Shown: positions 1,037-63,951 of the stretch, in pieces | How the letters are laid out: each line of letters starts with the position of its first letter | Numbering within the stretch: the first letter of the stretch is position 1 | Assembly (NCBI RefSeq): GCF_000355805.1 | Contig: NZ_CM001837.1 | Span: 879,408-943,407 of the forward strand | Reading direction: 5' to 3' | DNA: 64,000 nucleotides | Origin: Dokdonia sp. PRO95 | Lineage (GTDB): Bacteria; Bacteroidota; Bacteroidia; Flavobacteriales; Flavobacteriaceae | Made by a program: the position numbers and the translations under genes | Notes under the pieces: model-generated | What the model was told of the DNA's origin: nothing | What the model saw: the letters and a program-made list of their open reading frames with translations, nothing else | Database searches by the model: none

Positions 1037-1855
1037 TTACATTTTGATATAGAAGTCTTTAACTAGTGAGACATATGCGTCAGTATAATCGTGACGTGAC
1101 TTTTCGATAATAAGCGTTGTTATCTCTGCGGGACTTTGCGGGGTTACGCTTTCGCGAAAGCGGTCTTCTCCATCTACCACTTCTTCATCTTGAACAGCAA
1201 ATGAGAAAGACATAAGACTGCGCTTTACTGGTGCGTCTGGGGTTCCTTTTACTCTGGTAATTCTTGTAGGCACAAGTTGTGCTCTAGAACATAGCAAAAT
1301 AAAATCCTCTTCACGCTCATAAGGGATTATCACGTTAAATGTACCTTCTGGCGAAAGCAGCTTTGCTACCGCTCCCACAAGTAATTCAAAAGGCATCGCA
1401 GACTCAAACCTTGCTTGTTCTCTTGCATCTTGGGCTGCACCATCATTTTGCGACTTTTCTTTTAATGCGTCTTGCGAGGCTTGTGTGAGATCTTCTGTAT
1501 AAAATGGCGGGTTACAAACTATAAGGTCATACTCATCATCTACCTCTGCCGCAAACTCGTATAAATGTGCGTGGTAACAAAACAAACGATCGCCCCAGTC
1601 ACTGTTTTCAAAATTTTCGGTAGCCTGCTCATAGGCATTATCATCTAGCTCTACAGCATCTATAGTTTGTGCATCGCAGCGTTGTGCAAGCATAAGTGCT
1701 ATCACACCTGTGCCTGTCCCTATATCAAGTATACTATCTGGGTAAGCCTCTGTAGACGTCCAAGCACCTAGCAAGACACCATCTGTGCCTATTTTCATCG
1801 CACAGCGATCTTGAGCGATGGTAAACTGTTTGAATTTAAAGGGTTTTGATGACAT
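1037..1855 (-). CDS. trmN: tRNA1(Val) (adenine(37)-N6)-methyltransferase
   Basis: A 272-residue class I SAM-dependent methyltransferase of the YfiC/TrmN6 family, which methylates A37 of tRNA1(Val). The N-terminus (FKFKQFTIAQDRCAMKIGTDGVLLGAW) is the family signature. Motif I is LDIGTGTG at residues 43-50, and the N6-adenine motif NPPF is at 115-118. A charged Gln/Ala/Lys-rich insertion follows the NPPF motif (about 121-150), making it longer than the usual ~240 residues. The start ATG overlaps the rimM stop by one base (TAATG), which points to translational coupling. Near the C-terminus a copy of the iterated palindrome encodes RFRES. Confidence 0.92.
   Translation of the reverse strand: MSSKPFKFKQFTIAQDRCAMKIGTDGVLLGAWTSTEAYPDSILDIGTGTGVIALMLAQRCDAQTIDAVELDDNAYEQATENFENSDWGDRLFCYHAHLYEFAAEVDDEYDLIVCNPPFYTEDLTQASQDALKEKSQNDGAAQDAREQARFESAMPFELLVGAVAKLLSPEGTFNVIIPYEREEDFILLCSRAQLVPTRITRVKGTPDAPVKRSLMSFSFAVQDEEVVDGEDRFRESVTPQSPAEITTLIIEKSRHDYTDAYVSLVKDFYIKM
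1147..1162. repeat. Iterated palindrome, copy 1
   Basis: Perfect CGCTTTCGCGAAAGCG inside trmN, read as RFRES near the C-terminus of the protein. Confidence 0.95.
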
Positions 1856-2379
1856 TATATGTATAAATCTATCAAGCCTTCAGGTAGTTCAAAATGCATT
1901 TGCTTGTTCTCGCGGTCTAGCTTTTTGATAAAGTCATCTACCATAGGGATGAGTACTTGAGAGCCATCACGATCTATCTCAAAAATAGCCTGTGTGTTAC
2001 TATCATTTACATAAGTGATGGTACCTATCTCACCAAAAGCTTTGTCTACCGCAGTAAAGCCTACTACCTCGTGGAAGTAAAATTGATCTCCCTTTAACTC
2101 AGGAAGCAAATCTAGAGGCAAATATAAACCTGCGCCTATCATATCATCTGCATCTTCTTCCGTATCTATATCTTCAAATTTCACACGAAGCAAACTAGAT
2201 TTATGTAACTGTGAGGTCTCTACAAAATAAGGTACAAGACTAGGCCCAAAATCAATAAACACGGAGTCCATGTCTACATACATTTCTGGTTCGTCAGTAT
2301 CAAGTTTAGCCAGAAGTTCACCTTTAAAACTATACTTTCTAACTATTTTTCCGAGGTAGAAACAATCTTCTTTTTTCAT
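1855..2379 (-). CDS. rimM: Ribosome maturation factor RimM
   Basis: A 174-residue protein of normal RimM length. RimM helps mature the 16S rRNA 3' domain and binds ribosomal protein S19. The N-terminal beta-barrel domain (YLGKIVRKYSFKGELLAKLDTDEPEMY) carries the typical G-I/V---G-KGE pattern, and the C-terminal PRC-barrel domain begins near residue 95 (GDQFYFHEVVGFTAVD) and ends in the family-typical LLIPMVDDFIKKLDRENK-MHFELPEGLIDLY pattern. It follows rpsP by 179 nt with a terminator-like hairpin between them and overlaps trmN by one base. rpsP-rimM-trmN is a common order in flavobacteria. Confidence 0.95.
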   Translation of the reverse strand: MKKEDCFYLGKIVRKYSFKGELLAKLDTDEPEMYVDMDSVFIDFGPSLVPYFVETSQLHKSSLLRVKFEDIDTEEDADDMIGAGLYLPLDLLPELKGDQFYFHEVVGFTAVDKAFGEIGTITYVNDSNTQAIFEIDRDGSQVLIPMVDDFIKKLDRENKQMHFELPEGLIDLYI

Positions 2380-2485
2380 AGGGTGTAAAAATACGGGATA
2401 TCTTATAAAAAGTCTTAAAAGTTAATTGATAAGCAATATCAAGCATCGCGTTTGACCTCAATAGAGCAGCAATAAATTTAAGCCA

Positions 2486-2515
2486 TAAAAAAAGCCCCAA
2501 TAATTAAATCAGGGC
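2486..2515 (-). terminator. Terminator-like hairpin after rpsP
   Basis: On the minus strand, GCCCTGAT and ATTGGGGC (2515-2508 and 2501-2494) form an 8-bp stem with two G-U pairs and a 6-nt loop, followed by a run of seven T. It lies between rpsP and rimM, so it may attenuate the downstream rimM-trmN genes relative to the ribosomal protein. Confidence 0.65.
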
Positions 2516-2558
2516 ATTTTCAAAATGTTGCGAAAGCATAACTGCTTCCACGAGTTTT

Positions 2559-3074: not shown

Positions 3075-3121
3075 AAAAGTTAATTTGTGGGGTACCCGAC
3101 CCCGTTTTTTAAATAAGTGTG

Positions 3122-3129
3122 CAAATATA
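3122..3129 (-). promoter_or_regulatory. Possible -7 element for rpsP
   Basis: The minus strand reads TATATTTG, matching the Bacteroidota -7 consensus TAnnTTTG, 48 nt before the rpsP start. No clear TTG -33 element lies at the usual distance. Confidence 0.4.
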
Positions 3130-3174
3130 CTATAATTTTTCTGGCACTCATCACGTTATATCTTTAATATAAAG

Positions 3175-3182: not shown

Positions 3183-3205
3183 CCCTCTATTATTGATTTT
3201 TTATT

Positions 3206-4989: not shown

Positions 4990-7900
4990 ATGTACCTTAT
5001 TTTTGATACCGAAACCACCGGACTTCCTAAAAACTGGAACGCTCCACTTACAGACTCAGATAACTGGCCTAGAGCGATACAGATCGCATGGCAGTTGCAT
5101 GATGAGATGGGTAACGTCATAGAGCATCAGGATTATCTTATCAAGCCAGATGGATTTGACATTCCTTATGATGCAGAGCGCATACACGGTATCTCTACAG
5201 CACTTGCCGAAAGAGATGGGATTGAACTCTCTGAAGTACTCTCAAAATTTAATATTGCACTTTCAAAATCAAAGTATGTTGTAGGTCAGAATGTGGGCTT
5301 TGATACTAATATTATGGGTGCCGAGTTCCACAGACTCAATGTAGGTAATAACCTTCAAGAACTACCCGTACTAGATACCTGTACAGAAAAGACCGCCACT
5401 CTATGCCAGCTACCTGGAGGACGTGGTGGCAAGTTTAAACTACCTACGCTTACAGAGCTTCACAATCATCTTTTTGGCGAAGGTTTTGGCGAGGCGCACA
5501 ATGCCACGGCAGATGTGGAGGCAACTACTCGTTGCTTTTTAGAACTGATACGCCAGCGTGTTTACACAAAAGAGGAACTTGATGTTGCACCAGATTATTT
5601 TGATAGATTCTCTCAATCTAATCCACAGCCTATTGAGTTCATTGGACTCAAACACATAAATCTCAAAAAGGCTTCGGCAAAAATTGCCCAAGCACTAGCT
5701 GCCCAAGATGATACTCCAGAGATTTCTAAGGCAGAGATAGAGGAAAATAAAGAACAACTTTCTGATGTAAAGTTTGCTCACCTTCATAACCACTCACAAT
5801 TCTCCATATTACAATCTACCGCAAGCGTTCAAGATATTGTAAAAGCTGCCACACTACACAAAATGCCCGCTGTTGCTATGACAGATATGGGTAATATGAT
5901 GGGTGCTTTTCACTTTACAAAAGCGGTAAAGTCACATAACGCAGGCGTAAAAAAAGCAAATGCCGCAGCCGTAGAGGCGGGAGAAGAACCGGAGGGAGTA
6001 CCTCTTAAAGCCATTATTGGTTGTGAGTTTAACGTATGTGTAGACCACAAAAACAAAAGCCAGAAGGACAATGGGTACCAAATAGTGATACTCGCCAAAA
6101 ACAAAAACGGATATCAAAATCTCTGTAAAATGGCCTCTATAGCCTATACAGATGGGTTTTACTACGTTCCTAGAATAGACAAACAAGTAATTGAGCAATA
6201 CAAAGAAGATCTCATTGTACTCACGGGAAATTTATATGGTGAAGTGCCAAGTAAGATTCTTAATGTAGGAGAAAAACAAGCCGAGGAATCTCTTATTTGG
6301 TGGAAAGAACAATTTGGTGACGACCTCTATGTCGAGCTCATGCGTCACGGTCAAGAAGATGAAGATCGTGTGATGCCTGTTTTAATTACGCTTTCGCGAA
6401 AGCATAACGTAAAACTTATTGCTTCTAATAACACCTTCTACATTGATAAATCTGATGCAGATGCGCATGATGTTTTACTTTGTGTAAAAGATGGTGAGAA
6501 AGTAGCAACACCAAAGGGTCGAGGTAGAGGATATCGTTTTGGTTTACCAAACGACGAATACTACTTTAAGAGTGCAGATGAGATGAAAACGCTTTTTGCA
6601 GATGTGCCAGAAGCTATCTTAAATGTACAAGAGGTTGTTGATAAAATTGAACCTTACGAACTAGCAAGAGATGTATTACTTCCAGCATTTGACATACCAC
6701 AAGAATTTGTATCTCCAGAAGATGCCATAGATGGTGGAAAACGCGGTGAAAATGCTTTCTTAAAACATCTTGTTTACGAGGGAGCAAAAAAACGATACGG
6801 ACAGGATCTCTCTGAAGAAGTTATAGAACGCTTAGACTTTGAGCTAGATGTAATTGAAAAAACAGGTTACCCAGGATACTTCTTGATTGTAGAAGACTTT
6901 ATAAGAGAAGCTCGTAACATGGACGTTTCGGTAGGTCCCGGACGTGGATCTGCAGCGGGATCTGTTGCAGCATACTGTTTATGGATTACAAACATAGACC
7001 CGATGAAGTATGATTTGCTTTTTGAGCGTTTCTTAAATCCGGATCGTGTGAGTATGCCCGATATTGATATTGACTTTGATGATGAAGGTCGTGGGCGTGT
7101 AATGCAATATGTGATTGATAAGTATGGTGCAAATCAAGTAGCACAAATCATCACTTACGGTACAATGGCTGCAAAGTCATCCATAAGAGACACTTCTAGA
7201 GCGCTAGATTTATCACTAGGAGATGCAGACCGTATTGCAAAGCTCATACCTACTATGAGTAAGCTACGCAAGATCTTTGGTAAGACAGATGCAGAGTTGC
7301 GTAGTTCTTTTAGATCTGATGATTTGCCTAAGGTACAAGAGCTTATAAATATAGAGACTCAAGACAACCTGGAAGGGCAAATGCTACGTCAAGCAAGACA
7401 GTTAGAAGGATCTGTACGTAATACAGGAATACATGCTTGTGGTGTGATTATCACACCTAGTGACATTACAAACTTTGTACCTGTTGCACTAGCCAAAGAT
7501 TCTGATCTTTACGTAACCCAATTTGATAACTCTGTAGTAGAGGAAGCTGGGCTACTTAAAATGGATTTCTTGGGTCTGAAGACCCTTACACTTATAAAAG
7601 ATACTGTTAAGCTTGTTAAGTATCGTCATGATATAGATCTCGACCCAGAGAACTTCCCCCTTGATGACGAAAAAACGTATGAGTTATTCCAGCGCGGTGA
7701 TACCGTAGGGATATTTCAGTATGAATCTCCAGGAATGCAAAAGCACATGCAATCGCTCAAACCTACCGTGTTTGAAGATCTTATTGCAATGAATGCCTTG
7801 TATCGCCCTGGACCGATGGAATACATACCGTCATTCGTAAGAAGAAAACACGGAGAAGAAGAGATAGAATATGACCTTCCAGCCATGGAAGAATACCTTA

Positions 7901-9381: not shown

Positions 9382-9780
9382 CTACGCCACATTACGAGGA
9401 TTTAACAACTTCCTTCGCACTAAGATAGTTACTTCTTCCATGTAACTATCTGTCTCTAGTGTGTAGGTGAATTTTTGTGAATGCTCGTTACTTTTTACAC
9501 TCTGTATACTAGCCTGATGCAAAATGAATGCTCCATAATTTGGGTAACCTAGGTATTTGCAAAGCTTTTCTATCATCCTCGCATTAGGCGATAATTCTTT
9601 TGCTTCTACATCTTCTATATAATTATTATAGTAATTGAGAAGTGTTCTTCTTGAAATTTGGTAATTAAACTCACACCAGAGACTATTTGCTAGGTGATCT
9701 GCCCATTGTGTTTTTGTGTTTCCGGGGGTTTCTGTTTGCGCTTTCGCGAAAGCGGACAAAACAATTTTTCTAAACATCAT
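9382..9780 (-). CDS. Small protein of unknown function
   Basis: A 132-residue soluble protein convergent with dnaE (stop codons abut). I do not recognise it firmly. The central segment (QISRRTLLNYYNNYIE..LSPNARMIEKLCKYLGYPNYGAFI) has the look of a helical domain found at the N-terminus of many Bacteroidota proteins, where a surface/HTH-like unit ends in a YLGY-NY motif. The C-terminal part (KFTYTLETDSYMEEVTILVRRK) is beta-like and basic. A palindrome copy encodes AFAKA at residues 10-14. An inverted repeat at 9831-9846 lies 50 nt upstream, so it may be regulated or be a regulator itself. Confidence 0.6.
   Translation of the reverse strand: MMFRKIVLSAFAKAQTETPGNTKTQWADHLANSLWCEFNYQISRRTLLNYYNNYIEDVEAKELSPNARMIEKLCKYLGYPNYGAFILHQASIQSVKSNEHSQKFTYTLETDSYMEEVTILVRRKLLNPRNVA
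9739..9754. repeat. Iterated palindrome, copy 3
   Basis: Perfect CGCTTTCGCGAAAGCG, read as AFAKA near the N-terminus of the 132-residue protein. Confidence 0.95.
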
Positions 9781-14421: not shown

Positions 14422-17169
14422 CTATTTTACAGGCGCTTCAAAAACGCTATCTATTACTTTTTTGTGTCTTGCTTTTGATCTTGTACTACTTCCCGCAGCT
14501 GGAGATGCATAAACACGTCGCGATGCTACTCTAAGTTTTACTTGATCAAAATTCATAAGCATATAACCCCAAGCTCCCATATTTCTAGGCTCTTCTTGTG
14601 CCCAGACATAATCTGTTACATTAGGATAAGTTGCTATAATATCTTCTAACTGCTTTTGTGGCAGCGGGAATAATTGTTCTATACGTACAAGGGCTACATC
14701 ATCACGTCCATTTTCCTTACGACGCTCTAAGAGATCATAATAAAATTTACCTGTACAGAATACAAGTGATGTAACTTTCTTCTTATCTACCTCAGTGTCA
14801 TCAAGAACTTCTAGAAAAGACCCTGTGGTAAGCTCCTCTTTAGTACTCACTACAAGAGGGTGCCTTAATAAGGATTTAGGTGTAAAAACTACAAGCGGCT
14901 TTCTGAAATTCCACTTCATCTGGCGACGTAGTAGGTGAAAGAAGTTTGCTGGCGTCGTTACATCTGCCATTATAAGGTTATCTGTAGCACAAAGCTGCAG
15001 GTAACGTTCCATACGTGCACTAGAGTGCTCAGAACCTTGACCTTCATACCCGTGAGGTAATAACATCACAAGTCCGTTTTGTGTTTTCCACTTAGACTCT
15101 GCTGCGCTTATGTATTGGTCTAACATTATCTGTGCACCATTTGAAAAATCTCCAAATTGAGCCTCCCAGATAGTAAGTGTCTTAGGAGCAGCCATCGCAT
15201 ACCCGTAGTCAAAACCTACCACTCCATACTCAGAAAGTAGTGAGTTATAGATATCCATCTTACCAGCTACGTCTAAACGGTTGTGTAGATTGATCTCTTC
15301 TACATCATCTTCTGTTTTGATAATGGCGTGACGGTGAGAAAATGTTCCTCTCTCTACGTCTTGTCCAGATATACGTACATTAAATCCTTCTTCCATAAGA
15401 GAACCGTAAGCAAGAAGCTCACCCATTCCCCAGTCTAATTGGTTCTTTTCTGTATACTGCTTATTTCTATCTGCAACAATACGCTGTATCTTGCGTATGA
15501 ACTTTTTATCTTCTGGTAACTTCGTAATACCATCTGCTATAACATCTAGCTTACTTATATCATAGGTAGTATCTACAGGAGTAAGAATATCTTCTCTACT
15601 TCCTATCTCATACCCTTCCCAGTCATCTGCAAGAATCTCGGTAATTACCGTTTTATCTCTCTTACGAGATTCTTCAAGATCTTCTTCAAGATCATCTTTA
15701 TATTCTTTTTCGAGCTGCTTAACGTATCCCTTTTCTATAATTCCTTCCTTAAGAAGTCTTTCTGCATAGATATCACGTGGGTTTGCGTGTTTTGAGATTG
15801 CTTTATATAGTAAAGGCTGTGTAAACCTAGGCTCATCACCTTCATTATGTCCATACTTTCTATAACCTAGTATATCTATAAATACATCACGACCAAATTG
15901 CATTCTAAAATCAAGTGCAAAAGCAAATGCGTGACATACAGACTCTACATCATCTGCATTTACGTGTAGTACTGGAGACAAGGTAACCTTACCCACATCT
16001 GTACTATAAGTAGATGATCTCGCGTCGAGATAGTTTGTAGTAAAACCTACTTGGTTATTTGCTACGATATGTATCGTACCACCCGTGCGATATCCTTCTA
16101 ACTGTGCCATTTGCACAATTTCATATACAATACCTTGACCAGCTACGGCAGCATCTCCGTGTATAGCAATAGGAAGAATTTTCTTCTCATCTCCTCCTAA
16201 CTGATTATCAATTTTTGCACGAGACATCCCCTCTATTACTGCTCCTACAGTCTCGAGGTGCGATGGGTTAGGTGCTAGGTCCATACGTATTTTGTGTCCC
16301 TTATCGCTTTCGCGAAAGCTAGTCCACCCCATATGGTATTTTACATCTCCATCAAAAAGTTCATCCTCATCATACTCTTTTCCATCAAACTCAGAAAAGA
16401 TTGCCTCTGGTGATTTTCCGAAGATATTTGCTAGAACATTAAGACGACCACGGTGTGCCATCCCTACTACAAATTGCTCAACACCTTTATCAGACCCTCT
16501 CTCGATAAGCGTATCAAGTCCCGGAATCATAGCGTCAAGACCTTCTACAGAAAAACGTTTTTGCCCTACATACTTAGAGTGCAAGAAACCTTCAAAAGAA
16601 GCTGTTTGATTTAATTTTTTGAGAATATGCCTTTTTTCCTCTTTTGAAAAAGAAGGATGGTTATCATTTTTATTGAGCCAGTTCTGTATCCAAGCAATCT
16701 CTTCTGGATTACGAATGTACATATACTCAATACCTATGTGGTCACAATATATGGCCTCAAGGTGATTTACAATCTCTTGTAACGTCTTCTTCCCAATACC
16801 TAAAATTGAACCAGCTTCAAACTCTGTACTAAGATCAGACTTAGAGAGTCCAAAGTTTTCTATCTCTAGTGTAGGTGCATATTTACGACGTGCACGTACA
16901 GGGTTAGTCTTTGTAAAGAGGTGACCTCTGTTACGGTATCCGTCTATTAATTTTACTATTTGAAATTCTTTTTGAATTCCTTCAGGAATAACCACAGTCT
17001 CTCCCCCTACATCACCAGTAACCTCTTCTGCACTTTCTAGTCCAAAGTCAAAACCTTGAAAAAAAGCGCGCCAGCTAGCTTCTACACTATCTGGGTTAAG
17101 TAAATATTGATCGTAAAGCTCAGCAAAGTAAGCGGTATGTGCGGCATTCAGAAATGAAAATCTATCCAT
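14422..17169 (-). CDS. sucA: 2-oxoglutarate dehydrogenase E1 component
   Basis: Thiamine-diphosphate-dependent E1 that decarboxylates 2-oxoglutarate and passes the succinyl group to SucB. The frame is open from 17238 (938 residues), but I place the start at 17169 (915 residues). MDRFSFLNAAHTAYFAELYDQY is the usual Bacteroidota N-terminus, and a TAnnTTTG -7 element lies at 17208-17215, inside the longer version. Visible motifs include FLHSKYVGQKRFSVEG, GMAHRGRLNVLAN, HGDAAVAGQGIVYE, NNQVGFTT, GYRKYGHNEGDEP and the C-terminal SRRVYASPAAGS. A palindrome copy encodes SFRES. Confidence 0.97.
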   Translation of the reverse strand: MDRFSFLNAAHTAYFAELYDQYLLNPDSVEASWRAFFQGFDFGLESAEEVTGDVGGETVVIPEGIQKEFQIVKLIDGYRNRGHLFTKTNPVRARRKYAPTLEIENFGLSKSDLSTEFEAGSILGIGKKTLQEIVNHLEAIYCDHIGIEYMYIRNPEEIAWIQNWLNKNDNHPSFSKEEKRHILKKLNQTASFEGFLHSKYVGQKRFSVEGLDAMIPGLDTLIERGSDKGVEQFVVGMAHRGRLNVLANIFGKSPEAIFSEFDGKEYDEDELFDGDVKYHMGWTSFRESDKGHKIRMDLAPNPSHLETVGAVIEGMSRAKIDNQLGGDEKKILPIAIHGDAAVAGQGIVYEIVQMAQLEGYRTGGTIHIVANNQVGFTTNYLDARSSTYSTDVGKVTLSPVLHVNADDVESVCHAFAFALDFRMQFGRDVFIDILGYRKYGHNEGDEPRFTQPLLYKAISKHANPRDIYAERLLKEGIIEKGYVKQLEKEYKDDLEEDLEESRKRDKTVITEILADDWEGYEIGSREDILTPVDTTYDISKLDVIADGITKLPEDKKFIRKIQRIVADRNKQYTEKNQLDWGMGELLAYGSLMEEGFNVRISGQDVERGTFSHRHAIIKTEDDVEEINLHNRLDVAGKMDIYNSLLSEYGVVGFDYGYAMAAPKTLTIWEAQFGDFSNGAQIMLDQYISAAESKWKTQNGLVMLLPHGYEGQGSEHSSARMERYLQLCATDNLIMADVTTPANFFHLLRRQMKWNFRKPLVVFTPKSLLRHPLVVSTKEELTTGSFLEVLDDTEVDKKKVTSLVFCTGKFYYDLLERRKENGRDDVALVRIEQLFPLPQKQLEDIIATYPNVTDYVWAQEEPRNMGAWGYMLMNFDQVKLRVASRRVYASPAAGSSTRSKARHKKVIDSVFEAPVK
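16305..16320. repeat. Iterated palindrome, copy 4
   Basis: 14-bp core perfect; the 16-mer ends in T instead of G. Inside sucA, read as FRES. Confidence 0.95.
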
Positions 17170-17207
17170 TTGATATTTAAGTTCTGCGTCTTGCGACTTT
17201 AGAAAAG

Positions 17208-17215
17208 CAAAAATA
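17208..17215 (-). promoter_or_regulatory. Possible -7 element for sucA
   Basis: The minus strand reads TATTTTTG (TAnnTTTG), 38 nt before the ATG at 17169. It supports the shorter sucA start. Confidence 0.45.
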
Positions 17216-17280
17216 CGATAATTAACATTTTTGGACATATAATACCTATATTTATAACAGAGAATTAAGACACTACAGCT

Positions 17281-19029: not shown

Positions 19030-21156
19030 CTAGTCCATCATAATCTCTAGAAGACCTATCGCCGCCTCACTTATTTTTGTTCCAGGCCCAAAAACTGCTG
19101 CGGCTCCAGCCTCAAATAAAAATTGATAATCTTGCTGTGGAATCACTCCTCCTACAATCACCATAATATCTGGTCTTCCTAGCGCCTTTAGTTCTTCAAT
19201 TACTTGAGGAACTAATGTTTTGTGACCAGCAGCAAGTGATGAGACTCCTAGTATATGCACATCATTTTCTACTGCTTGTTTTGCTGCCTCTTTAGGTGTT
19301 TGAAATAGCGGCCCTATATCCACATCAAAACCTATATCTGCGTAGCCAGTTGCTACTACTTTGGCTCCACGGTCGTGACCGTCTTGCCCCATTTTGGCAA
19401 TCATAATTCTAGGACGACGCCCGTCTTGCGTTGCAAATTGGTTTGCGAGTTGTTGCGCTTTCGCGAAAGCGGAATCTTCTTTCATCTCTTTGCTATATAC
19501 ACCACTAAAGGATTGTATCTGCGCTTTGTGACGCCCATAAACCTCCTCTAGTGCATCTGAAATTTCTCCTAGGGTTGCTCTTTCTCTAGCTGCTATAACC
19601 GCAAGTGATAATAAATTACCATTGCCCTCTCTAGCTGCGTTTGTAAGCGCCTCTAAAGCTTGAGAAACTTTAGCTGAGTCTCTGTCATTTTTGATTTGAT
19701 CCAGACGCTTAAGCTGGCCATCACGCACCTTTGTATTATCTACATCAAGTATATCTAGGTGCTCATCTTCTGTAGGTCTGTATTTATTTACTCCCACAAT
19801 AATATCTTGACCACTATCTATGCGGGCTTGCTTTCTAGCAGCTGCCTCTTCAATACGCAATTTAGGAATACCAGCTTCTATAGCTTTAGTCATTCCGCCT
19901 AGCTCCTCTACTTCTTGAATAAGCTCCCAGGCTTTATGAGCAATATCATTTGTGAGAGACTCTACATAATAACTACCCGCCCACGGGTCTACAGTTTTTG
20001 TAATATGTGTTTCTTGCTGTAAGAAAATTTGTGTGTTACGAGCAATACGAGCAGAAAAATCTGTAGGTAAGGCAATGGCCTCATCTAGTGCGTTTGTGTG
20101 CAAACTCTGCGTCCCTCCAAAAGCCGCTGCAGCGGCTTCTATGGTAGTACGAGCTACATTATTAAATGGATCTTGCTCTGTAAGACTCCAACCACTAGTC
20201 TGGCAGTGGGTTCTCAAGGCAAGAGACTTTGGGTTTTTAGGGTTAAATTGTTTTACAATTTTTGCCCAAAGCATACGTGCTGCACGCATTTTGGCAACTT
20301 CCATAAAGTGATTCATCCCTATTGCCCAAAAGAAAGATAATCTTGGCGCAAAGCTGTCTATATCCATCCCGGCAGCAAGCCCAGTTTTTATGTACTCCAG
20401 TCCATCTGCTAGGGTGTATGCGAGTTCTATATCGCAAGTTGCTCCAGCTTCTTGCATATGATATCCAGAGATTGAGATACTATTAAATTTAGGCATCTCC
20501 TTTGCTGTATATTCAAAGATATCTGAGATAATTCTCATAGACGGTGTAGGAGGATATATGTACGTGTTACGCACCATGAATTCCTTAAGAATATCATTTT
20601 GGATTGTACCCGAAAGTAGCGCCGTATCTACTCCTTGCTCTTGTGCTGCGACTATATAAAATGCCATAATAGGCAGTACAGCACCATTCATAGTCATAGA
20701 GACAGACATCTTATCTAGCGGTATCTGGTCAAAAAGGATTTTCATATCCTCTACCGAGTCTATCGCCACACCTGCCTTACCCACATCTCCCACTACGCGT
20801 TCGTGATCACTATCATAACCACGGTGTGTTGCGAGATCAAAAGCTACCGAGAGTCCCTTTTGGCCTGCAGCAAGGTTTCTACGATAGAATGCGTTACTAT
20901 CTTCTGCAGTAGAAAAACCTGCATACTGGCGTATCGTCCAAGGCCTTCTTACGTACATTGTGCTGTAAGGCCCGCGTAAGTTAGGAGCTATACCTGCGAT
21001 AAAATCAAGATGCTCCAGACCTTCTAGGTCATCCTTTGTATAATACGACTTTACGTCAATCTTTTCTGCAGTAGTAGTCACCTTAGCTTCTACCACTGAC
21101 GATGTGTTTTCTTCTAGAGAGGAAAGTGTGATATGTTGAATATTTCTTCTACTCAT
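19030..21156 (-). CDS. scpA: Methylmalonyl-CoA mutase large (catalytic) subunit
   Basis: A 708-residue B12-dependent mutase interconverting (R)-methylmalonyl-CoA and succinyl-CoA. The catalytic TIM barrel covers about 60-550 ([38 protein letters not shown], and [23 protein letters not shown]). The C-terminal cobalamin domain has the base-off motif DGHDRG with axial His, then GVSSLAAGH and IVGGVIP. It overlaps the embedded lipoprotein gene by 8 nt. A palindrome copy encodes AFAKA in the linker before the B12 domain, a surface-exposed region. It links propionyl units to the TCA cycle. Confidence 0.96.
19456..19471. repeat. Iterated palindrome, copy 5
   Basis: Perfect CGCTTTCGCGAAAGCG in the scpA interdomain linker, read as AFAKA. 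Confidence 0.95.
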
Positions 21157-30754: not shown

Positions 30755-30762
30755 TACATTTG
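30755..30762 (+). promoter_or_regulatory. Possible -7 element for the secreted EEP gene
   Basis: TACATTTG matches TAnnTTTG, 60 nt before the ATG at 30823. A clear -33 TTG is lacking. Confidence 0.4.
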
Positions 30763-30822
30763 ACTTGCATATTACGAAAAATCTTACATAAAACACACAT
30801 ACATTCTATAAATCACAAAACC

Positions 30823-31937: not shown

Positions 31938-31953
31938 CGCTTTCGCGCAAGCA
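31938..31953. repeat. Degenerate palindrome copy
   Basis: CGCTTTCGCGCAAGCA differs from the 16-bp consensus at two positions in the right arm. It is intergenic, after the secreted EEP gene. Confidence 0.7.
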
Positions 31954-40857: not shown

Positions 40858-40873
40858 CGCTTTCGCGAAAGCG
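40858..40873. repeat. Iterated palindrome, copy 11
   Basis: Perfect CGCTTTCGCGAAAGCG, intergenic, 12 nt beyond the hpd stop codon. Confidence 0.95.
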
Positions 40874-42145: not shown

Positions 42146-42161
42146 CGCTTTCGCGAAAGCG
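42146..42161. repeat. Iterated palindrome, copy 12
   Basis: Perfect CGCTTTCGCGAAAGCG, intergenic, 4 nt past the stop codon of the CCC-motif gene; extends to ACGC...GCGT. Confidence 0.95.
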
Positions 42162-46256: not shown

Positions 46257-47969
46257 CTAACTATTTTTCTCAATCCAGTGTTTCACTCGTCTATCAAGTA
46301 TAGCGAGTGTCACCGTTCCTTGCTCTAAGATAATCTCATGGAATTCTCTAATATCAAACTTAGCACCTAGCTCTTTTTCTGCTAGCGTTCTCAATTCTCT
46401 TATTTTGAGTTCGCCCATTTTATAAGCAAGCGCTTGTCCCGGCCATGAGATATATCTATCGGTCTCCGTATTAATTTCATGTATGGAAAGCGCTGTGTTT
46501 TCAGACATATAATCTACCACTTGCTCCCTTGTCCAGCCTTTTGCGTGTAATCCAGTATCTACTACAAGTCTGCAAGCACGCCACATTTCATAGGTCAATT
46601 GTCCAAAACGTTCGTACGGTGTTGTATACATTCCCATTTCGGCAGCGAGGTATTCGCAGTATAATCCCCATCCCTCACCATATGCATTTACATACATATT
46701 TTTTCTAAATGTTGGAATACTATCTCCCAACTCTTGATTAAGCGATCCTTGTAAGTGATGCCCAGGAACGGCCTCATGAACTGTAAGTGATGGCAGCACA
46801 TACACCGGACGACTAGGTAAATCATAGGTGTTTACCCAGTAGTATCCAGGATTTGTACTTCCCTTTGCACTACCTACATATCGCCCTGTCGTGTATTTAG
46901 GAGCAATAGCATCTGGTACTGGAGCCACTCCGTATGGTTTGCGAGGTAAAGTCTTAAAAAATCGAGGTAACTGAGCATCTGCTCTTTTTGCCATGTCGCG
47001 AGCAATCATAAGTAATTGCTCTGGAGAAGTGGCGTAAAACTGTTTGTCTGTGCGCAAAAATTGTAAAAAGTCTGCAAAAGAGCCTTCAAAGTTTATTTCC
47101 TTAATAATTTTCTGCATTTCGGCTTTGATGCGGGCAACTTCAGCGAGTCCTTTATTATGCACCTCGTCTGCGGTGATATCTAGGGTAGTGTAATAGTTTA
47201 TTCTGTTTTGATAATATGCTTTTCCATTTGGTGTTTCTGAAACTCCAAGGGTAGTGCGAGTTTTCGGGAGATATTCTGTTTCAAAGAATGTTTTTACACG
47301 CTCAAAAGACGGAACAACCTGTTGTTCTATTGCGCTTCTAGCAGCTACCAATAGTGAATCTCTTTGCGCTCCCGATATTGAACTTGGTAAGTTTAAGAAT
47401 GGCTCATAATAGAAGCTGTCTTTATAATCGCCTACAATTTGTGAATCATACGTACTCTCATATCCATTAAAAATCACATGCGGCTGCGAGACACCTTTTT
47501 TTACTCCTTCTCTCAATAATGGTAAATATTGATCTACTACGTCTGGTAACGCTTTCAGCTTATTGAGGTATGAAACAGCTTGCTTATACGTACTTATGGG
47601 ACGCACCATATAATTCCAACTACTGTGGAAACCCGAGTCTGACAACAGCGGATTTAGATAGCGTTCGTATTCATAATAATCTACCGTTTCTTGATGCTTA
47701 AACATGAGTAACTCTAGAGATATGAGCTCCGTTTCAGACAACGTTGATGGTGTTATAGCCTGTAGTTTTTTAAGTTGCGCTTTCGCGAAAGCGGACTCCT
47801 TTTCAAACCGTTCTTTTGAAAACACACCCATAGGATGCTCATCTGCCAAATCATCTTGCCACTTGAACTCCTGACTATCTTCTATAATTTTTGCAAGCTG
47901 CGCCGAAGAATTCTGAGCGCAAACATTCATTGAAATACAGAAAACGAGCAGTATAATTATATGCTTCAT
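46257..47969 (-). CDS. DUF885 exported metallopeptidase-like protein
   Basis: A 570-residue exported protein (signal MKHIIILLVFCISMNVCAQ). The DUF885 family is a probable zinc peptidase: VHEAVPGHHLQGSLN carries a HExxxGHH-type motif, and GWGLYCEYLAAEMG supplies a likely further ligand Glu. In the hydroxyproline operon it could release hydroxyproline-containing peptides outside the cytoplasm, for example from collagen fragments; this is inference from context. Six bases after the aldehyde dehydrogenase. A palindrome copy encodes AFAKA near residue 62. Confidence 0.85.
   Translation of the reverse strand: MKHIIILLVFCISMNVCAQNSSAQLAKIIEDSQEFKWQDDLADEHPMGVFSKERFEKESAFAKAQLKKLQAITPSTLSETELISLELLMFKHQETVDYYEYERYLNPLLSDSGFHSSWNYMVRPISTYKQAVSYLNKLKALPDVVDQYLPLLREGVKKGVSQPHVIFNGYESTYDSQIVGDYKDSFYYEPFLNLPSSISGAQRDSLLVAARSAIEQQVVPSFERVKTFFETEYLPKTRTTLGVSETPNGKAYYQNRINYYTTLDITADEVHNKGLAEVARIKAEMQKIIKEINFEGSFADFLQFLRTDKQFYATSPEQLLMIARDMAKRADAQLPRFFKTLPRKPYGVAPVPDAIAPKYTTGRYVGSAKGSTNPGYYWVNTYDLPSRPVYVLPSLTVHEAVPGHHLQGSLNQELGDSIPTFRKNMYVNAYGEGWGLYCEYLAAEMGMYTTPYERFGQLTYEMWRACRLVVDTGLHAKGWTREQVVDYMSENTALSIHEINTETDRYISWPGQALAYKMGELKIRELRTLAEKELGAKFDIREFHEIILEQGTVTLAILDRRVKHWIEKNS
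47778..47793. repeat. Iterated palindrome, copy 14
   Basis: Perfect CGCTTTCGCGAAAGCG in the DUF885 gene, read as AFAKA. Confidence 0.95.
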
Positions 47970-50782: not shown

Positions 50783-51616
50783 ATGCGTGTACTTCCTTTT
50801 AAAATTCCGAAGCCTAGCAATGCTGCTATTCTATTTCAAGTAGATCAAGGTGTATTATACAATGCACTCCATCATCATGAGGAAATCCAAATAAGCTACA
50901 TTAAGAAAGGAACGGGAACTCTAGTGGCAGGAGACACTGTTCATTCATTTTCGGCTGGAGAGGTAATTGTTTTAGGTAGCTTTCAGCCCCATGTATTTAA
51001 TAGTGACACCGCAGATTGCTTGATGTATTCTGTGTTCTTTAGTGCAGCATCTTTTGGCGATATATTTTTACAACTAGAAGAAGGGAAAGGTATTGCAGAT
51101 TTTAACGCTTTCGCGAAAGCGGGATTTAAAACATCCGTAACTCCTGAAATTGACTCTTTGTTCCAACATATAAACACGGCTCAAGGAATGCATAGACTAG
51201 GGCATTTTATAGACCTAATTACTGTCTTGAAAATCAAGAAAAGCATCTCGCTCTCGACGTTTATCTATAAACGTCATATTTCTGAAAAAGATGGAAAACG
51301 CATGAGTGCAATCTTTGACTTTACACTAGCAAACTACAAGCAAGAGGTGCATTTAAATGATCTCGCATCACTCACATCTATGACGCCTCATAGCTTTTGC
51401 AAATACTTTAAACAGCGCACAAACAAGTCATATTTTAGTTTTCTTACTGAAGTTCGCATTGCACATGCCTGCTCCTTACTAGAAGCCCAACAAGAAATTT
51501 CTATAGCAGATGTTGCAGATCGCTGCGGTTATAAGACTTTATCGCATTTTAATAAAAACTTTAAGAAATTGAAGAAAATCACTCCAAGCGCCTTTAGAGA
51601 CAAGGATAGGACGTAA
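50783..51616 (+). CDS. AraC-family transcriptional regulator of the hydroxyproline operon
   Basis: A 277-residue regulator: N-terminal cupin sensing domain (about 10-110; LHHHEEIQISYIKKGTGTLVAGD) and a C-terminal pair of HTH motifs (HLNDLASLTSMTPHSFCKYFKQRTNKS, then ISIADVADRCGYKTLSHFNKNFKKLKKITPSAFR). It is divergent from the hydroxyproline operon with 133 nt between, so it is the likely activator, responding to hydroxyproline or an intermediate. A palindrome copy encodes AFAKA at about residues 109-113, in the linker between the domains. Confidence 0.9.
   Translation: MRVLPFKIPKPSNAAILFQVDQGVLYNALHHHEEIQISYIKKGTGTLVAGDTVHSFSAGEVIVLGSFQPHVFNSDTADCLMYSVFFSAASFGDIFLQLEEGKGIADFNAFAKAGFKTSVTPEIDSLFQHINTAQGMHRLGHFIDLITVLKIKKSISLSTFIYKRHISEKDGKRMSAIFDFTLANYKQEVHLNDLASLTSMTPHSFCKYFKQRTNKSYFSFLTEVRIAHACSLLEAQQEISIADVADRCGYKTLSHFNKNFKKLKKITPSAFRDKDRT
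51106..51121. repeat. Iterated palindrome, copy 15
   Basis: Perfect CGCTTTCGCGAAAGCG in the AraC-type gene, read as AFAKA in the interdomain linker. Confidence 0.95.
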
Positions 51617-54103: not shown

Positions 54104-55101
54104 TTGCCTTTAATCCTTGTCCATAGATTACCCAAGACGGCATTCATATTTGAAGGGTCAGGGCGATCTTCTGTGGCGGTGATAGTACCGTTATTTTCCT
54201 CTAGCTTGTATCTAAAAACAAACTGAGGATTATCTGGATCTATAGCGATAAGTCCAAAACGGAGGTCATTATATATCCACTTATCTTGAATTTTCTCAAG
54301 AATATACCATCCTTCAGAAATGGTAATGAGTCGTTGTACTTCTGACCTATTAATAAGCGCTTCACTTTCTGAGCGCTTTTTGGGATATGCCTTAAAAGAA
54401 ATAGGCTGCGTGTCGAGTAAAGAGTAATCTCCTATAAGATAATTTTCGCCTGCATCTACGTTTATATTCCACAGCACAGTATTCATAGGGGCTGGACGCG
54501 TTGAGATTTGGGTATATGTTATGCCCTGCTGCTCAAGATTCTGAACCACCTTTTGATGGGCTACATATTTTATCACAACTGTGAGTAATAAATATGAGCT
54601 ACTTATGTAAAGGCCAAGGTTGTTAGTACGCTTTCGCGAAAGCGAACCACGTTTTCTAGTAGCTGCTATGAGGACACATATTAAGAAAGGAACTGTGTAT
54701 AATGGATCTATGACAAAGATGCTATTAAAAGCAACCCTCCAATTAAATGGCCAAAATATTTGCGTTCCCCAAGTCGTAAAAGCATCTAACAATGGATGTG
54801 TAAAAAAACCCCAGAAAAATAGCTTTGACCATCCTTGCCAGCCTACATCTGGTCGTTTTTTAAGCTGATGGACGAGCCATCCAAACAAGGGTGCTGCGAG
54901 AATAGAAAATACAATACTGTGGCTAAAACCACGGTGCATCTCGGTGGCTGTGATAGTATCTGTAAGATATCTCCACACAATGTCAAGATCTGGTATGGTA
55001 CCCGCAACCGCTCCCCAGATCATTGCTCTATTACCTATCTTTTTACCAAGTACTGCCTCGCCTACTGCAGCGCCAAGAACTATCTGAGTTAAACTATCCA
55101 T
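54100..55101 (-). CDS. Membrane-bound metal-dependent hydrolase, YdjM family
   Basis: A 333-residue membrane protein of the YdjM/LexA-regulated inner-membrane hydrolase family (MDSLTQIVLGAAVGEAVLGKKIGNRAMIWGAVAGTIPDLDIVW, then HRGFSHSIVFS and FFTHPLLDAFTTWGTQIFWPF). The conserved His and Asp residues of these motifs form the likely metal site at the membrane, as in phospholipase-C-like enzymes. Four or five transmembrane helices are followed by a soluble C-terminal domain. Last gene of the packed operon, 19 nt after the MutS-like gene. A palindrome copy encodes SLSRKR in a loop. Confidence 0.88.
   Translation of the reverse strand: MDSLTQIVLGAAVGEAVLGKKIGNRAMIWGAVAGTIPDLDIVWRYLTDTITATEMHRGFSHSIVFSILAAPLFGWLVHQLKKRPDVGWQGWSKLFFWGFFTHPLLDAFTTWGTQIFWPFNWRVAFNSIFVIDPLYTVPFLICVLIAATRKRGSLSRKRTNNLGLYISSSYLLLTVVIKYVAHQKVVQNLEQQGITYTQISTRPAPMNTVLWNINVDAGENYLIGDYSLLDTQPISFKAYPKKRSESEALINRSEVQRLITISEGWYILEKIQDKWIYNDLRFGLIAIDPDNPQFVFRYKLEENNGTITATEDRPDPSNMNAVLGNLWTRIKGN
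54629..54644. repeat. Iterated palindrome, copy 16
   Basis: Perfect CGCTTTCGCGAAAGCG in the YdjM-family gene, read as LSRK. Confidence 0.95.
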
Positions 55102-57252: not shown

Positions 57253-57737
57253 TTGGCAATTATTGTTGCTTCTATGAGTTCATCTTCCAAAGGTGGTTCA
57301 AACCAAGTTTCCATAAATTCAAAATCTTCTTCCGAAACGTCAAATTCGTAGGTGGCTCCTTGCTCTTTATTACGCTGTTGTACTCGTTCTTTTCTCATTT
57401 CCTTAGCTATATCTAAAAAATGAAGCTGATAGGGTATTTGATGCGCTTTCGCGAAAGCGTAAAAACGTTCTCTTCTATATCGCTTTGCAAATCCTAGATC
57501 TAAAATTGCGGGGGTATCCGCCTCTTCCAGCTGTAACACTAGGGATAGAATCATCTGGTCGTTACGCGCGATGCGTTCTAAAAACCAGTCAACTCCGTCT
57601 GTATCTTGTTTATCATCTAGAAATAATGTTTTATTCCAATGATCAATGGAAAATAAGATACCATTAACGCTTTTTTTAAGATCTAATGAATATGTAGTTT
57701 TTCCTGCTCCTGTATTTCCAGTAATGAGATATATCAC
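57249..57737 (-). CDS. P-loop NTPase / kinase-like protein
   Basis: A 162-residue nucleotide-binding protein with Walker A GNTGAGKTT (residues 7-15), an acidic region (FSIDHWNKTLFLDD) and the LDLGFAKRYRRERF segment containing the Arg lid of small kinases. This resembles zeta-toxin/shikimate-kinase-like AAA proteins that phosphorylate small molecules; the substrate is unknown. Start is GTG, overlapping the stop of the DUF4230 gene by one base (TAGTG). A palindrome copy encodes AFAKA just after the Arg-rich segment. Confidence 0.85.
   Translation of the reverse strand: MIYLITGNTGAGKTTYSLDLKKSVNGILFSIDHWNKTLFLDDKQDTDGVDWFLERIARNDQMILSLVLQLEEADTPAILDLGFAKRYRRERFYAFAKAHQIPYQLHFLDIAKEMRKERVQQRNKEQGATYEFDVSEEDFEFMETWFEPPLEDELIEATIIAK
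57444..57459. repeat. Iterated palindrome, copy 17
   Basis: Perfect CGCTTTCGCGAAAGCG in the P-loop gene, read as AFAKA. Confidence 0.95.
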
Positions 57738-60283: not shown

Positions 60284-60886
60284 TTAGGTATTCGCTTTCG
60301 CGAAAGCGTTTTTCATCTCAATAAATGCTGCTACGGGATCATCTGCATTCCATATGCCGCCTAGCGCTCCTACTCCTTTAAAACCAAGCTTTAGTGCTTC
60401 TGGAGTTGTGGTTGCATTGATTCCTCCCATACCAACAATATCTTTTTTGATGTGACGCACATCAAAACCTCTTCCTTGCATATCACTCTTAGAAATTGCC
60501 GAAAAAACAGGACTTAATAACGTATACTCAAAACGTACTGCTTGCGACGCTAGATCTTCTGGCTCATGATAAGAGGAAGACACGATATTATCTTTACTAG
60601 TAAATGAATTTACGTAGGCTTCTAAACCATCACCTTGCGCTCTCCACATCGCTTCTTCTAGATGCACGCCCTTAATATTAAACTGACCACACAGCTCTTT
60701 ATGAAAGTTATGCGTCATTATACGATTATGATATGCACTATCAACCTTTTTCAGGTATGCTATGTGATCATCAAGACTCGCATTTGGTTTTCTAAGATGA
60801 AAATGAGATAGCCCAGCTTCAAATAGATGATGCAGCGTGGCAATCTCGTATTCACTCGTTTCCTCAGGAGAAATTAATATGATCAT
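60284..60886 (-). CDS. Thiamine phosphate synthase-like protein (ThiE/TenI)
   Basis: A 200-residue TIM-barrel protein of the ThiE/TenI group (GLSHFHLRKPNASLDDHIAYLKK, then GVHLEE, SSSYHEPEDLA, EYTLLSPVFSAISKSD and GMGGINATT). ThiE couples HMP-PP and HET-P to thiamine phosphate, and TenI-like members isomerise the thiazole. The region after HLR lacks a few residues of canonical ThiE, so the reaction is uncertain. No other thi gene is near. It directly abuts trxA. A palindrome copy encodes the last residues (NAFAKANT), so the C-terminus itself derives from it. Confidence 0.85.
   Translation of the reverse strand: MIILISPEETSEYEIATLHHLFEAGLSHFHLRKPNASLDDHIAYLKKVDSAYHNRIMTHNFHKELCGQFNIKGVHLEEAMWRAQGDGLEAYVNSFTSKDNIVSSSYHEPEDLASQAVRFEYTLLSPVFSAISKSDMQGRGFDVRHIKKDIVGMGGINATTTPEALKLGFKGVGALGGIWNADDPVAAFIEMKNAFAKANT
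60293..60308. repeat. Iterated palindrome, copy 18
   Basis: Perfect CGCTTTCGCGAAAGCG covering the last codons of the ThiE-like gene, read as AFAKA, two residues before the C-terminus. Confidence 0.95.
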
Positions 60887-61611: not shown

Positions 61612-61630
61612 TCACTCACTGTATATAAGA

Positions 61631-61662: not shown

Positions 61663-61664
61663 TG

Positions 61665-63575
61665 TTATAATAGTGCGTTGTCCTTTACACTCTGTACAAC
61701 TTCAGGATTAAGAAGTGTACTTATATCCCCTAGATTATCTCCTTCCCCAGAGGCAATCTTGCGCAGTATACGTCGCATGATTTTACCAGATCGTGTTTTA
61801 GGTAATCCATTTGTAAATTGAATTTTATCCAGCTTTGCTATCGGGCCTATTTTTTCTGTGATAAGCTGATTAATTTCCTTGCGTAAATTATCATGATCAC
61901 GTCCTTCACCAGTCTCCTTTAAAGTTACATAACCGTACAAAGCATTTCCTTTAATAGTATGAGGAAAACCTACAATTGCACTTTCGGCAACAGCTGGATG
62001 TTCATTAATAGCATCTTCTATAGGTGCTGTACCCAGGTTGTGACCAGAAACGATAATGACATCATCTACACGTCCCGTGATTCTATAATAACCCGTTGCA
62101 TCTCTTAAAGCGCCATCTCCAGTAAAATACATATTATCAAATGCCGAAAAATACGTGTCTTTATACCTTTTGTGATCACCCCATATCGTTCTAGCTATAC
62201 TAGGCCATGGAAATTTAATACACAACCTTCCTTCTACTTGGTTTCCTTTTATTTCTTTCCCTTGTTCATCCATTAAACAGGGTTGTATCCCTGGTAAAGG
62301 CAAAGTTGCAAATGTGGGAATTGTAGGCGTTGCAAAAGGGATAGGACTAATCATAATTCCACCGTTTTCCGTTTGAAACCAGCTATCAACAATTGGACAT
62401 TTTTTCTTCCCTATATTATCATTATACCAGTGCCAAGCTTCCTCATTTATGGGTTCGCCTACGGTTCCTAAAACCTTGAGAGATGACAAATCATACTTCT
62501 CTACATAACTCAAGTTCTCCTTGGCAAGTGCTCTTATCGCTGTGGGTGCTGTATAAAATTGGTTTACTTGATGTTTATCTATTATTTCCCAAAAGCGTCC
62601 CCAGTCTGGAAAACTTGGAACTCCTTCATAAAGTACAGAGGTGGCACCATTTGCAAGTGGCCCGTAGACAATATAACTATGCCCAGTAATCCATCCTATA
62701 TCTGCACTACACCAGTACACATCATCCTCTCTATATTGGAATACATTTTTAAATGTATATGCACTATACACCATATATCCCGCGGTAGTGTGCAACATTC
62801 CCTTAGGTTGCCCTGTAGAACCAGAAGTGTATAATATAAAAAGAGAATCCTCTGCTTCCATAGTTTCGGCAGGGCATTCTGTTGATGCCTCCTTTAACAG
62901 TGGTGCTACCCACTCATCACGCCCCTCTTTCATTACTACATCACCACCAGTGCGCTTAACAACAAGCACGCTCTCCACAGATGGCGTATTTTCTAATGCA
63001 TCATCTACAATACATTTAAGGTCAATTGTTTTATTACCACGATAGGAGCCATCACTTGTAATCACCATCTTACAGCTTGCATCATTGATACGCGTGCTCA
63101 ATGCAGTACTAGAAAAGCCAGCAAATACTACCGAATGTACTGCTCCTATACGCGCACAGGCAAGCATAGATACCGCAAGTTCTGGTATCATGGGTACATA
63201 AATACACACACGATCACCGCGCGTCACACCTTTACCCTTAAGCACATTTGCAAACTTGCACACGCGTTCATGGAGGTCTTTATAAGTAATATGTTCGGCA
63301 GGATCTTCAGGGTTATTGGGCTCAAAGAGCAATGCGGTTTTATTACCACGAGTATAGAGATGCCTATCGAGACAATTTTCTGTAATATTTAATTGGGCTC
63401 CATCAAACCACTTTACTTCTGGCTTTTTAAAATCCCATTCTAATACGGTATCCCAGCGCTTTCGCCAAACAAAATTTTCTTCGGCAATTTCTTCCCAGAA
63501 CTGCTCAGGCTTATCTACAGACTTTTGGTAGACTTGAAAATACTCTTGTAGACCTTTTATGTGGTAATTACTCAT
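61665..63575 (-). CDS. acsA: Acetyl-CoA synthetase
   Basis: A 636-residue AMP-forming acyl-CoA synthetase. The AMP-binding P-loop is LYTSGSTGQPKG, with the A3/A5-type motifs WFQTENGG and the aspartate of the GDGALRD region. GRVDDVIIVSGHNLGTAPIEDA and the C-terminal LPKTRSGKIMRRILRK hold the CoA region and the acetylation-sensitive Lys. The N-terminal YFQVYQKSVDKPEQFWEEIAEE and KWFDGAQLNITENCLDRH are acetyl-CoA synthetase features rather than general acyl-CoA ligase. It activates acetate for the TCA cycle or lipids. It ends 53 nt from the 47-residue gene, convergent. Confidence 0.97.
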   Translation of the reverse strand: MSNYHIKGLQEYFQVYQKSVDKPEQFWEEIAEENFVWRKRWDTVLEWDFKKPEVKWFDGAQLNITENCLDRHLYTRGNKTALLFEPNNPEDPAEHITYKDLHERVCKFANVLKGKGVTRGDRVCIYVPMIPELAVSMLACARIGAVHSVVFAGFSSTALSTRINDASCKMVITSDGSYRGNKTIDLKCIVDDALENTPSVESVLVVKRTGGDVVMKEGRDEWVAPLLKEASTECPAETMEAEDSLFILYTSGSTGQPKGMLHTTAGYMVYSAYTFKNVFQYREDDVYWCSADIGWITGHSYIVYGPLANGATSVLYEGVPSFPDWGRFWEIIDKHQVNQFYTAPTAIRALAKENLSYVEKYDLSSLKVLGTVGEPINEEAWHWYNDNIGKKKCPIVDSWFQTENGGIMISPIPFATPTIPTFATLPLPGIQPCLMDEQGKEIKGNQVEGRLCIKFPWPSIARTIWGDHKRYKDTYFSAFDNMYFTGDGALRDATGYYRITGRVDDVIIVSGHNLGTAPIEDAINEHPAVAESAIVGFPHTIKGNALYGYVTLKETGEGRDHDNLRKEINQLITEKIGPIAKLDKIQFTNGLPKTRSGKIMRRILRKIASGEGDNLGDISTLLNPEVVQSVKDNALL

Positions 63576-63951
63576 TATGTATCTATTTGATTGATAAAAG
63601 ATATAGAGTATGACGCTAATAATGAAAACATTTAACGCTTTCGCGAAAGCGTACTAAAGACAAACCACCTTAATATTATCATAAATGCAAAATCTCAACT
63701 AGTTAAGGCTCAAATATGCAACAGAACACCTTTTTATAACATCAAAATTATTCATTACTGATAATTAGCGGCTTACAAAAAATTTAAAATCAATCTTAAT
63801 AAATAAAAAAACTCATCAAACATCTCAAACAATCGGTGAAAAGCAGTATTTTTTAGATTAAAAGAATATTATTAGTTAATTAAATACATTTTCTGATGTA
63901 ACAACTGCTCTAGGGGCAATTGCTTAAATTTTAATTCCCAAATCAATATTT
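63576..63951. other. 376-bp gene-free region upstream of acs
   Basis: AT-rich. It holds one palindrome copy (63636-63651) and no other motif I can support; TATCTTTT on the minus strand is a weak -7 candidate for acs. Confidence 0.5.
63636..63651. repeat. Iterated palindrome, copy 19
   Basis: Perfect CGCTTTCGCGAAAGCG, intergenic, 60 nt upstream of acs; extends to ACGC...GCGT. Confidence 0.95.

Follow-up and report, generated by a model that had tools for sequence, protein, structure and literature searches.

The question raised by a 64,000-nucleotide stretch of the genome of Dokdonia sp. PRO95 (NZ_CM001837.1, positions 879,408 to 943,407; hereafter, the window), from a genus that serves as a marine proteorhodopsin model, is why a single palindromic word recurs along its whole length. 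The original prediction, made from the letters of this stretch, was that the 14-mer GCTTTCGCGAAAGC is present in 19 perfect copies, 15 of them extending to a 16-mer, and in one degenerate copy, that the copies are scattered singly rather than in tandem, and that about 0.0001 copies would be expected. A recount reproduced these figures: 19 perfect 14-mers, of which 15 are contained in the 16-mer CGCTTTCGCGAAAGCG (the first starting at 1147 and the last ending at 63651), none of them in tandem, and one copy with a single mismatch at 31939-31952, while an order-3 Markov expectation scaled to the window also gives about 0.0001. In shuffled versions of the window, whose GC content is 38.1%, the mean was 0.16 copies and the maximum 2, with up to two mismatches allowed. 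The observation of an iterated palindrome is therefore confirmed, and its first interpretation was partly supported. The answer that we favour, tentatively and with somewhat less than even confidence, is that the word serves for recognition throughout the genome by one specific protein, most probably when cells exchange DNA.

If anything, the abundance of the word had been understated. The PRO95 genome (one contig of 3,305,093 bases) contains 794 perfect 14-mers, that is, one per 4.2 kb, and 874 sites when up to one mismatch is accepted, which leaves 80 one-mismatch forms and a ratio of perfect to singly mismatched copies of about 10:1. The main sample, composed of the window and 20 stretches of 20 kb from the same genome (464 kb, 14% of the genome), held 111 perfect copies versus 0.0009 expected from an order-3 Markov model; the expectation was 0.007 at order 4, 1.1 at order 5 and 39 at order 6, the last two values being high because the palindrome itself dominates those counts. 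The reversed, uncomplemented pattern, used as a control, had 0 copies in this genome and in each of 18 genus genomes, and the 40 commonest 12-mers of the main sample were, bar masked N, fragments of the element, of its flanks or of the one-armed form described below. All 18 of the genus genomes searched, PRO95 included, hold between 369 and 905 copies, and copy number did not track genome size (r 0.34 across 13 genomes, each at least 93% complete). Likewise, the 11 named Dokdonia loci compared, which encode the best matches to a protein of the window (L120-L130, one of them labelled 'Cytophagaceae bacterium'), all carried 2-9 copies, versus 0 of 69 other loci. The word is thus neither confined to the window nor present at the level dictated by composition, the two outcomes that had been set against a genome-wide iterated element, and that notion stands, also because the orthologous sites are conserved, as detailed below.

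A second property of the word is its regular spacing. For the first 100 copies of genomes G000 and G001, to which the spacing lists of these two genomes are limited, the coefficient of variation (CV) of the gaps was 0.67 (P 5e-5) and 0.74 (P 9e-4), respectively, versus a median of about 0.98 for exponential gaps; it was 0.39 in the window, and 0.65 and 0.50 in contiguous 200-kb stretches of the larger genomes G002 and G017. There is an excess of gaps near 2.75-3.5 kb, and the number of copies per 20-kb stretch was under-dispersed over the 20 stretches (variance/mean 0.44, P 0.018). Short gaps are particularly scarce: in five contiguous sets, 4 of 137 gaps were below 1 kb, versus 30.9 expected with the intergenic preference of the word kept (minimum 18 in 2000 draws), and the two further sets left out of this test, from G004 and G006 with about 20 gaps each, contained one such gap each. 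Over the first 100 copies of G001, giant open reading frames (ORFs) of 4431 and 5060 amino acids occupy the two longest intervals devoid of the word (L109, L110, G001:C1:287300-321000).

The copies persist at orthologous positions. Counting over the regions orthologous to the window, from the first-named genome of each pair (with similar reverse counts), the word was perfect at 21/21 sites between G004 and G006 (93% identity), 17/19 between G000 and G004 (88%), 14/17 between G000 and G016 (80%), 13/17 between G000 and G001 (79%) and 6/7 between G000 and G003 (72.6%; 6/8 in the reverse direction). An overlapping set of loci gave, at 60-80% identity, 30 perfect comparisons of the word out of 49, versus 3% for control 14-mers. 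Missing copies were either one or two mismatches away or differed at 3-12 positions, gaps counted; genic alleles devoid of the word showed scattered substitutions or small gaps, four of nine aligned rows were gapped at the word at the intergenic site 40859, and no clean empty site was seen. The copies of the window, by the coordinates of the 14-mer, are the following:

1148..1161, perfect, 16-mer, inside the minus-strand ORF 1037-1855
6390..6403, perfect, 14-mer, inside the plus-strand ORF 4990-9381
9740..9753, perfect, 16-mer, near the start of the minus-strand ORF 9382-9780, in the Ala-Phe-Ala-Lys-Ala (AFAKA) frame
16306..16319, perfect, 14-mer, inside the minus-strand ORF 14422-17238
19457..19470, perfect, 16-mer
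22681..22694, perfect, 16-mer
25411..25424, perfect, 16-mer, near the start of the plus-strand ORF 25396-26379
30862..30875, perfect, 16-mer, near the start of the plus-strand ORF 30760-31875, encoding the signal-peptide-like LFFYAFAKAQQ
31939..31952, degenerate, one mismatch; at the orthologous position, G016 and G001 have a perfect copy, G004 and G006 a one-armed one
36210..36223, perfect, 16-mer; kept by some relatives at 73-75% identity and missing in others
39299..39312, perfect, 14-mer; several relatives within Dokdonia, as well as genus g162, have a perfect copy at this site
40859..40872, perfect, 16-mer, intergenic; gaps in some relatives
42147..42160, perfect, with the full 22-bp palindrome (TTAC...GTAA), intergenic
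44435..44448, perfect, 14-mer; retained at 70-74% identity, the site also being in g162
47779..47792, perfect, 16-mer, in the minus-strand DUF885 ORF 46257-47969; 8 of the 9 rows aligned here have a perfect copy
51107..51120, perfect, 16-mer; G004 and G006 have one C-to-T mismatch, and G001, G008, G011 and G016 a perfect copy
54630..54643, perfect, 16-mer; site also in g162
57445..57458, perfect, 16-mer
60294..60307, perfect, 16-mer, near the 3' end of the minus-strand ORF 60284-60886
63637..63650, perfect, 16-mer, intergenic

Regarding the DUF885 ORF, a contig labelled Alphaproteobacteria (L199), from a bin that may be mixed, encodes a DUF885 protein 48% identical to that of Dokdonia.

The unit that is kept is larger than the 14-mer. 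Across the 111 copies of the main sample, the element extends to the 22-bp palindrome TTACGCTTTCGCGAAAGCGTAA, and its flanks are biased as well: on either strand, the 5' flank is poor in C and rich in G/T out to about position -17. This bias is common to intergenic and genic copies, it is also present in a further carrier genus, g10, and it is weak in g162. The flanks are symmetric, since an oriented model predicted held-out sites no better; a one-sided flank model, outperformed by the symmetric one when tested on sites of g1 and g10 that had been held out, was rejected, as was selection on the flanks for hairpin formation, because their complementarity was not above that of shuffled flanks and, for positions 5-17 in g1, was below it. 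With ORFs called mechanically at a threshold of at least 90 amino acids, 54 of the 111 copies fell outside ORFs, although only about 11% of the sample is non-ORF DNA (89% ORF). The earlier statement that copies lie in genes as well as in intergenic DNA was therefore correct, but intergenic DNA is favoured genome-wide, in the window alone just 3 of 19 copies being intergenic. Among the 57 copies inside ORFs, 34 were in the frame that reads AFAKA. Eight of these 34 (the window copies at 9740, 25411 and 30862 among them) lie within the first ~35 codons of called ORFs, whose start codons are uncurated, and several follow a hydrophobic stretch, as if such copies near ORF starts served as signal-peptide cleavage sites.

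A related class lacks one of the two GC arms. The core TTTCGCGAAA occurs 145 times in the main sample, with both GC arms in 111 cases, one arm in 34 and neither in 0. The one-armed form, GCTTTCGCGAAAATNTGA, was found at 42 distinct sites in L009-L028 and L100-L108, 34 of them in L009-L028, and in PRO95 its second arm tends to A-T-N-T-G-A; as a class, it was seen in the window's own genome and not in the other Dokdonia loci examined. None of the 34 one-armed copies lay within 500 bp of a perfect copy and four lay within 1 kb, the figures for random positions being 19% and 36%. One-armed copies may be functionally equivalent to perfect ones, as a kind of dialect, or may be located in DNA of other origin.

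Beyond the genus, the distribution of the word is patchy. Among 395 genomes of the family, 89 had at least one copy and six had more than 400, namely two of the same genus, three of g10 (578, 664 and 609 copies) and one of g162 (408 copies); the remaining 83 contained 1-19 copies each. In the sample of the phylum, 16 of 296 genomes had any copy, and more than four were found in PRO95 only. By RpoB, the nearest genera among the matches listed were g162 and g126, both at 94%; the latter corresponds to Leeuwenhoekiella (100% match to a named locus), with 6, 9 and 10 copies in three genomes. Six of nine distinct alignment-spanned sites of g162 are common to at least one Dokdonia, including those in the rpoB-rpoC gap and behind parB (65-77% identity), and therefore the word predates the split between Dokdonia and g162. 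In contrast to these shared sites, g10 presented six sites with Dokdonia-alignable DNA within 350 bp, with no alignment spanning the site itself, and the word behind parB was absent in all three of its genomes; g10 was absent among the RpoB matches listed and stood apart in the ParB and ComEC trees. This suggests that g10 gained the word separately, in a second origin.

The word is also carried by mobile DNA. The 16-mer was present in 41 stretches from 30 viral contigs, 18 of which had at least two copies in the part examined, and 15 of 20 proteins scanned from four word-bearing viral contigs matched phage families (terminase, portal, capsid, tape measure and one integrase). Among related phages at 64-72% identity, the site was common to several pairs and missing in others, and in viral pairs below 88% identity 32 of 47 sites were conserved versus 6.4% of control 14-mers, a figure that is inflated, and whose pairs are not independent, because the viral contigs were selected by the word itself. 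No relatives of one phage capsid region were found in the phage collection. As a positive control, Haemophilus phage HP1 was found to contain 17 perfect copies of the uptake core of its host, so that carriage by phages does not speak against an uptake word. In several low-count genera, the copies were clustered, and these genera have in common a word-bearing island of the metal-resistance type (L111-L116, L119), pieces of which are 74-95% identical across several marine genera, in genomes otherwise having few or no copies. The island genes scanned (L111 and one protein of L112) comprised resistance-nodulation-division (RND) efflux, outer-membrane and membrane-fusion efflux parts, multicopper oxidase and heavy-metal ATPases, and no match to the island appeared among the Dokdonia loci compared.

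These properties could be integrated by assuming that DNA bearing the word would be preferentially taken up or recombined, so that intact copies would replace damaged ones and spread; this would be molecular drive, to which selection for exchange among kin may or may not contribute. It is proposed that a single copy per exchanged fragment would suffice, a second one nearby gaining nothing, and that the few-kilobase spacing would follow from this. We infer that the word has a protein reader and a role in uptake or recombination, and that its upkeep is due to biased exchange and not to fitness at each site. Among the roles initially listed as candidates, a DNA-uptake or recombination signal would fit best, given the even spacing, the intergenic preference, the homogeneity and a phage carriage such as that of HP1. 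The obvious counterparts are the DNA uptake sequences (DUS) of Neisseriaceae and the uptake signal sequences (USS) of Pasteurellaceae, which share with the Dokdonia word the hundreds to thousands of copies, the few mutated forms, the kilobase-scale even spacing, the intergenic excess, the biased flanks, the restriction to some genera and the carriage by phages (for USS, the host-adapted temperate phage HP1). Even, or exchanged-fragment-scale, spacing is reported in excerpts of the literature on DUS (PMC2397512) and on USS, the latter also with flanking AT-rich segments (PMC7811141). Relative to these words, the one found here has proportionally fewer one-mismatch forms (for H. influenzae, an excerpt of PMC1939737 counts 1471 uptake words that are perfect and 764 with a single mismatch), it is longer (14 fixed positions, 22 preferred and about 48 with flanks) and palindromic, and it resides in Bacteroidota. 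Within the flavobacteria, Riemerella columbina is described, in the portion of PMC7965970 at hand, as naturally transformable with a preference for its own DNA and with no established word. Neither the 14-mer nor its inner 12-mer occurs in any of the open-access papers searched, and no report of this element was found among the matches listed there.

Several observations weigh against a role in exchange. Known uptake words are non-palindromic, according to an excerpt of PMC1939737, and natural transformation in Dokdonia is unsupported by the open-access literature, the genus going unmentioned among the matches listed. Of 10 motif-rich genomes, only 3 had a PF00437 pilus/secretion ATPase scoring above the cut-off (other pilus genes were not searched), and therefore the uptake route of Neisseria and Haemophilus is not a general feature of the carriers. 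ComEC was found in all 24 genomes checked, so that its presence does not track the word; a transferred ComEC was rejected as the partner, since the tree needs two changes, a single change being found in 0 of 200 bootstrap trees, and, as the tree separates the two carrier groups, no transferred ComEC accounts for g10. A seemingly faster evolution of ComEC in carriers was not retained as a finding, since the branch-length ratios of Leeuwenhoekiella, read off the tree, were similar. In addition, no reader protein was found, one-armed copies do not avoid one another (5 of 18 neighbour gaps were below 1 kb, one of them of 27 bp), and, although copy number is independent of genome size, copy density did not differ consistently between aligned and unaligned DNA, so that a DUS-like absence from newly acquired DNA did not emerge from these comparisons.

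Because the homogeneity, the mutual repulsion, the conservation, the intergenic preference and the phage carriage match those of DUS and USS, and yet the word is palindromic and the pilus ATPase is missing in 7 of 10 carriers, it would best be seen as a word kept by biased exchange, with a reader that may be of another kind, working like DUS and USS without being classed among them. A more specific version, about which we are more doubtful although we consider it plausible, is that of a palindromic 'self' word of Bacteroidota, of ~48 bp with its flanks and with a reader independent of type IV pili, which would be obeyed by chromosome, phages and islands, would have originated on two occasions, both times in this extended form (in Dokdonia and the near g162, and in the distant g10) and would have a one-armed dialect in the species of the window. 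If it were a true uptake word, no earlier strong example in Bacteroidota and no earlier palindromic one would be known, to judge from the open-access literature searched, and its reader would have to be distinct from the known pilus receptor in the majority of the carriers examined. A word-rich genus, a near genus sharing sites, a near genus almost devoid of the word and a distant carrier would then make the origins of such words, by drive or by selection favouring the DNA of kin, testable by comparison, and the word could aid genetics in Dokdonia.

The main competitor, which we regard as unlikely, is that the palindrome is bound by an abundant dimeric protein that forms part of the nucleoid or organises the chromosome and requires an anchor every few kilobases, and that phages keep the word in order to be handled like the chromosome. 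The symmetry of the 22-bp palindrome and of its flanks, with no gain from orientation, would suit a dimer, and the even spacing, the fairly uniform density over the 20 sampled stretches and the presence of the word in phage contigs would be expected of such anchors. The parS and Noc sites, palindromes of 14-16 bp with TTTC...GAAA arms bound by protein dimers, resemble the Dokdonia word in being palindromic and in these very arms. However, the arms of the Dokdonia word are two bases apart and not four, and its copies are evenly spread in hundreds, while parS and Noc sites number a few or tens. Ten of ten motif-rich genomes had one ParB_N match each, that is, no extra ParB-type gene, so that the proposed segregation-protein target found no support from this side, and the exact parS core, GTTTCACGTGAAAC, was absent from 323 loci, each covering only part of its genome. 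Moreover, no binding protein is known, total copies do not rise with genome size, and the near genus Leeuwenhoekiella manages with just 6-10 copies.

Less probable still is a Chi-like signal for recombination and end processing, at which a helicase-nuclease would switch from degradation to recombination, to the benefit of both chromosome and phages. One copy per 4.2 kb resembles the density of Chi in E. coli, phage contigs carry the word, and the 5' flanks of both strands are rich in G/T, which is said to be favoured by RecA. Chi sites, however, are short, non-palindromic, oriented and read on one strand, and a palindrome of 14-22 bp with a 10:1 ratio of perfect to one-mismatch copies is unlike them.

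We give little credence to the methylation-linked, HIP1-like role put forward at the outset, in which an orphan methylase would modify TCGCGA and effects on repair or replication would keep the sites. The word does have this palindromic TCGCGA core, but conservation spans 14-22 bp, well beyond these 6 bp, and methylase sites are usually shorter than a fixed word of at least 14 bp. Of 11 motif-rich genomes, 5 had no match to the C5-methylase family PF00145 (the search did not extend to adenine- and N4-methylases), which weakens the proposal. Cyanobacterial HIP1 (GCGATCGC) is likewise a palindrome highly iterated across genome and clade, and it is linked to orphan methylases in the part of PMC4390886 consulted; at 8 bp, it differs from the longer and regularly spaced Dokdonia word, for which no consistent C5-methylase was seen. 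Finally, a selfish element of the repetitive extragenic palindrome (REP) or miniature inverted-repeat transposable element (MITE) type spreading by transposition, also among the early suggestions, is scarcely credible, for although there are hundreds of near-identical copies and the gaps at 40859, nothing beyond the palindrome and flank composition is common to the copies, half of them lie inside open ORFs (57/111), spacing is even, sites are shared with g162 at 65-77% identity, and genic alleles without the word differ by substitutions or small gaps.

The Dokdonia word has an unrelated parallel within the phylum. A Saprospiraceae metagenome-assembled genome contig (L197, JAEUUP010000113.1) contains, in 21.7 kb, 21 copies (10 on one strand and 11 on the other) of the non-palindromic CCCCTCAGTA, often extended to ACCCCTCAGTAT, which is, judging by its sequence, a second uptake-word-like repeat of Bacteroidota.

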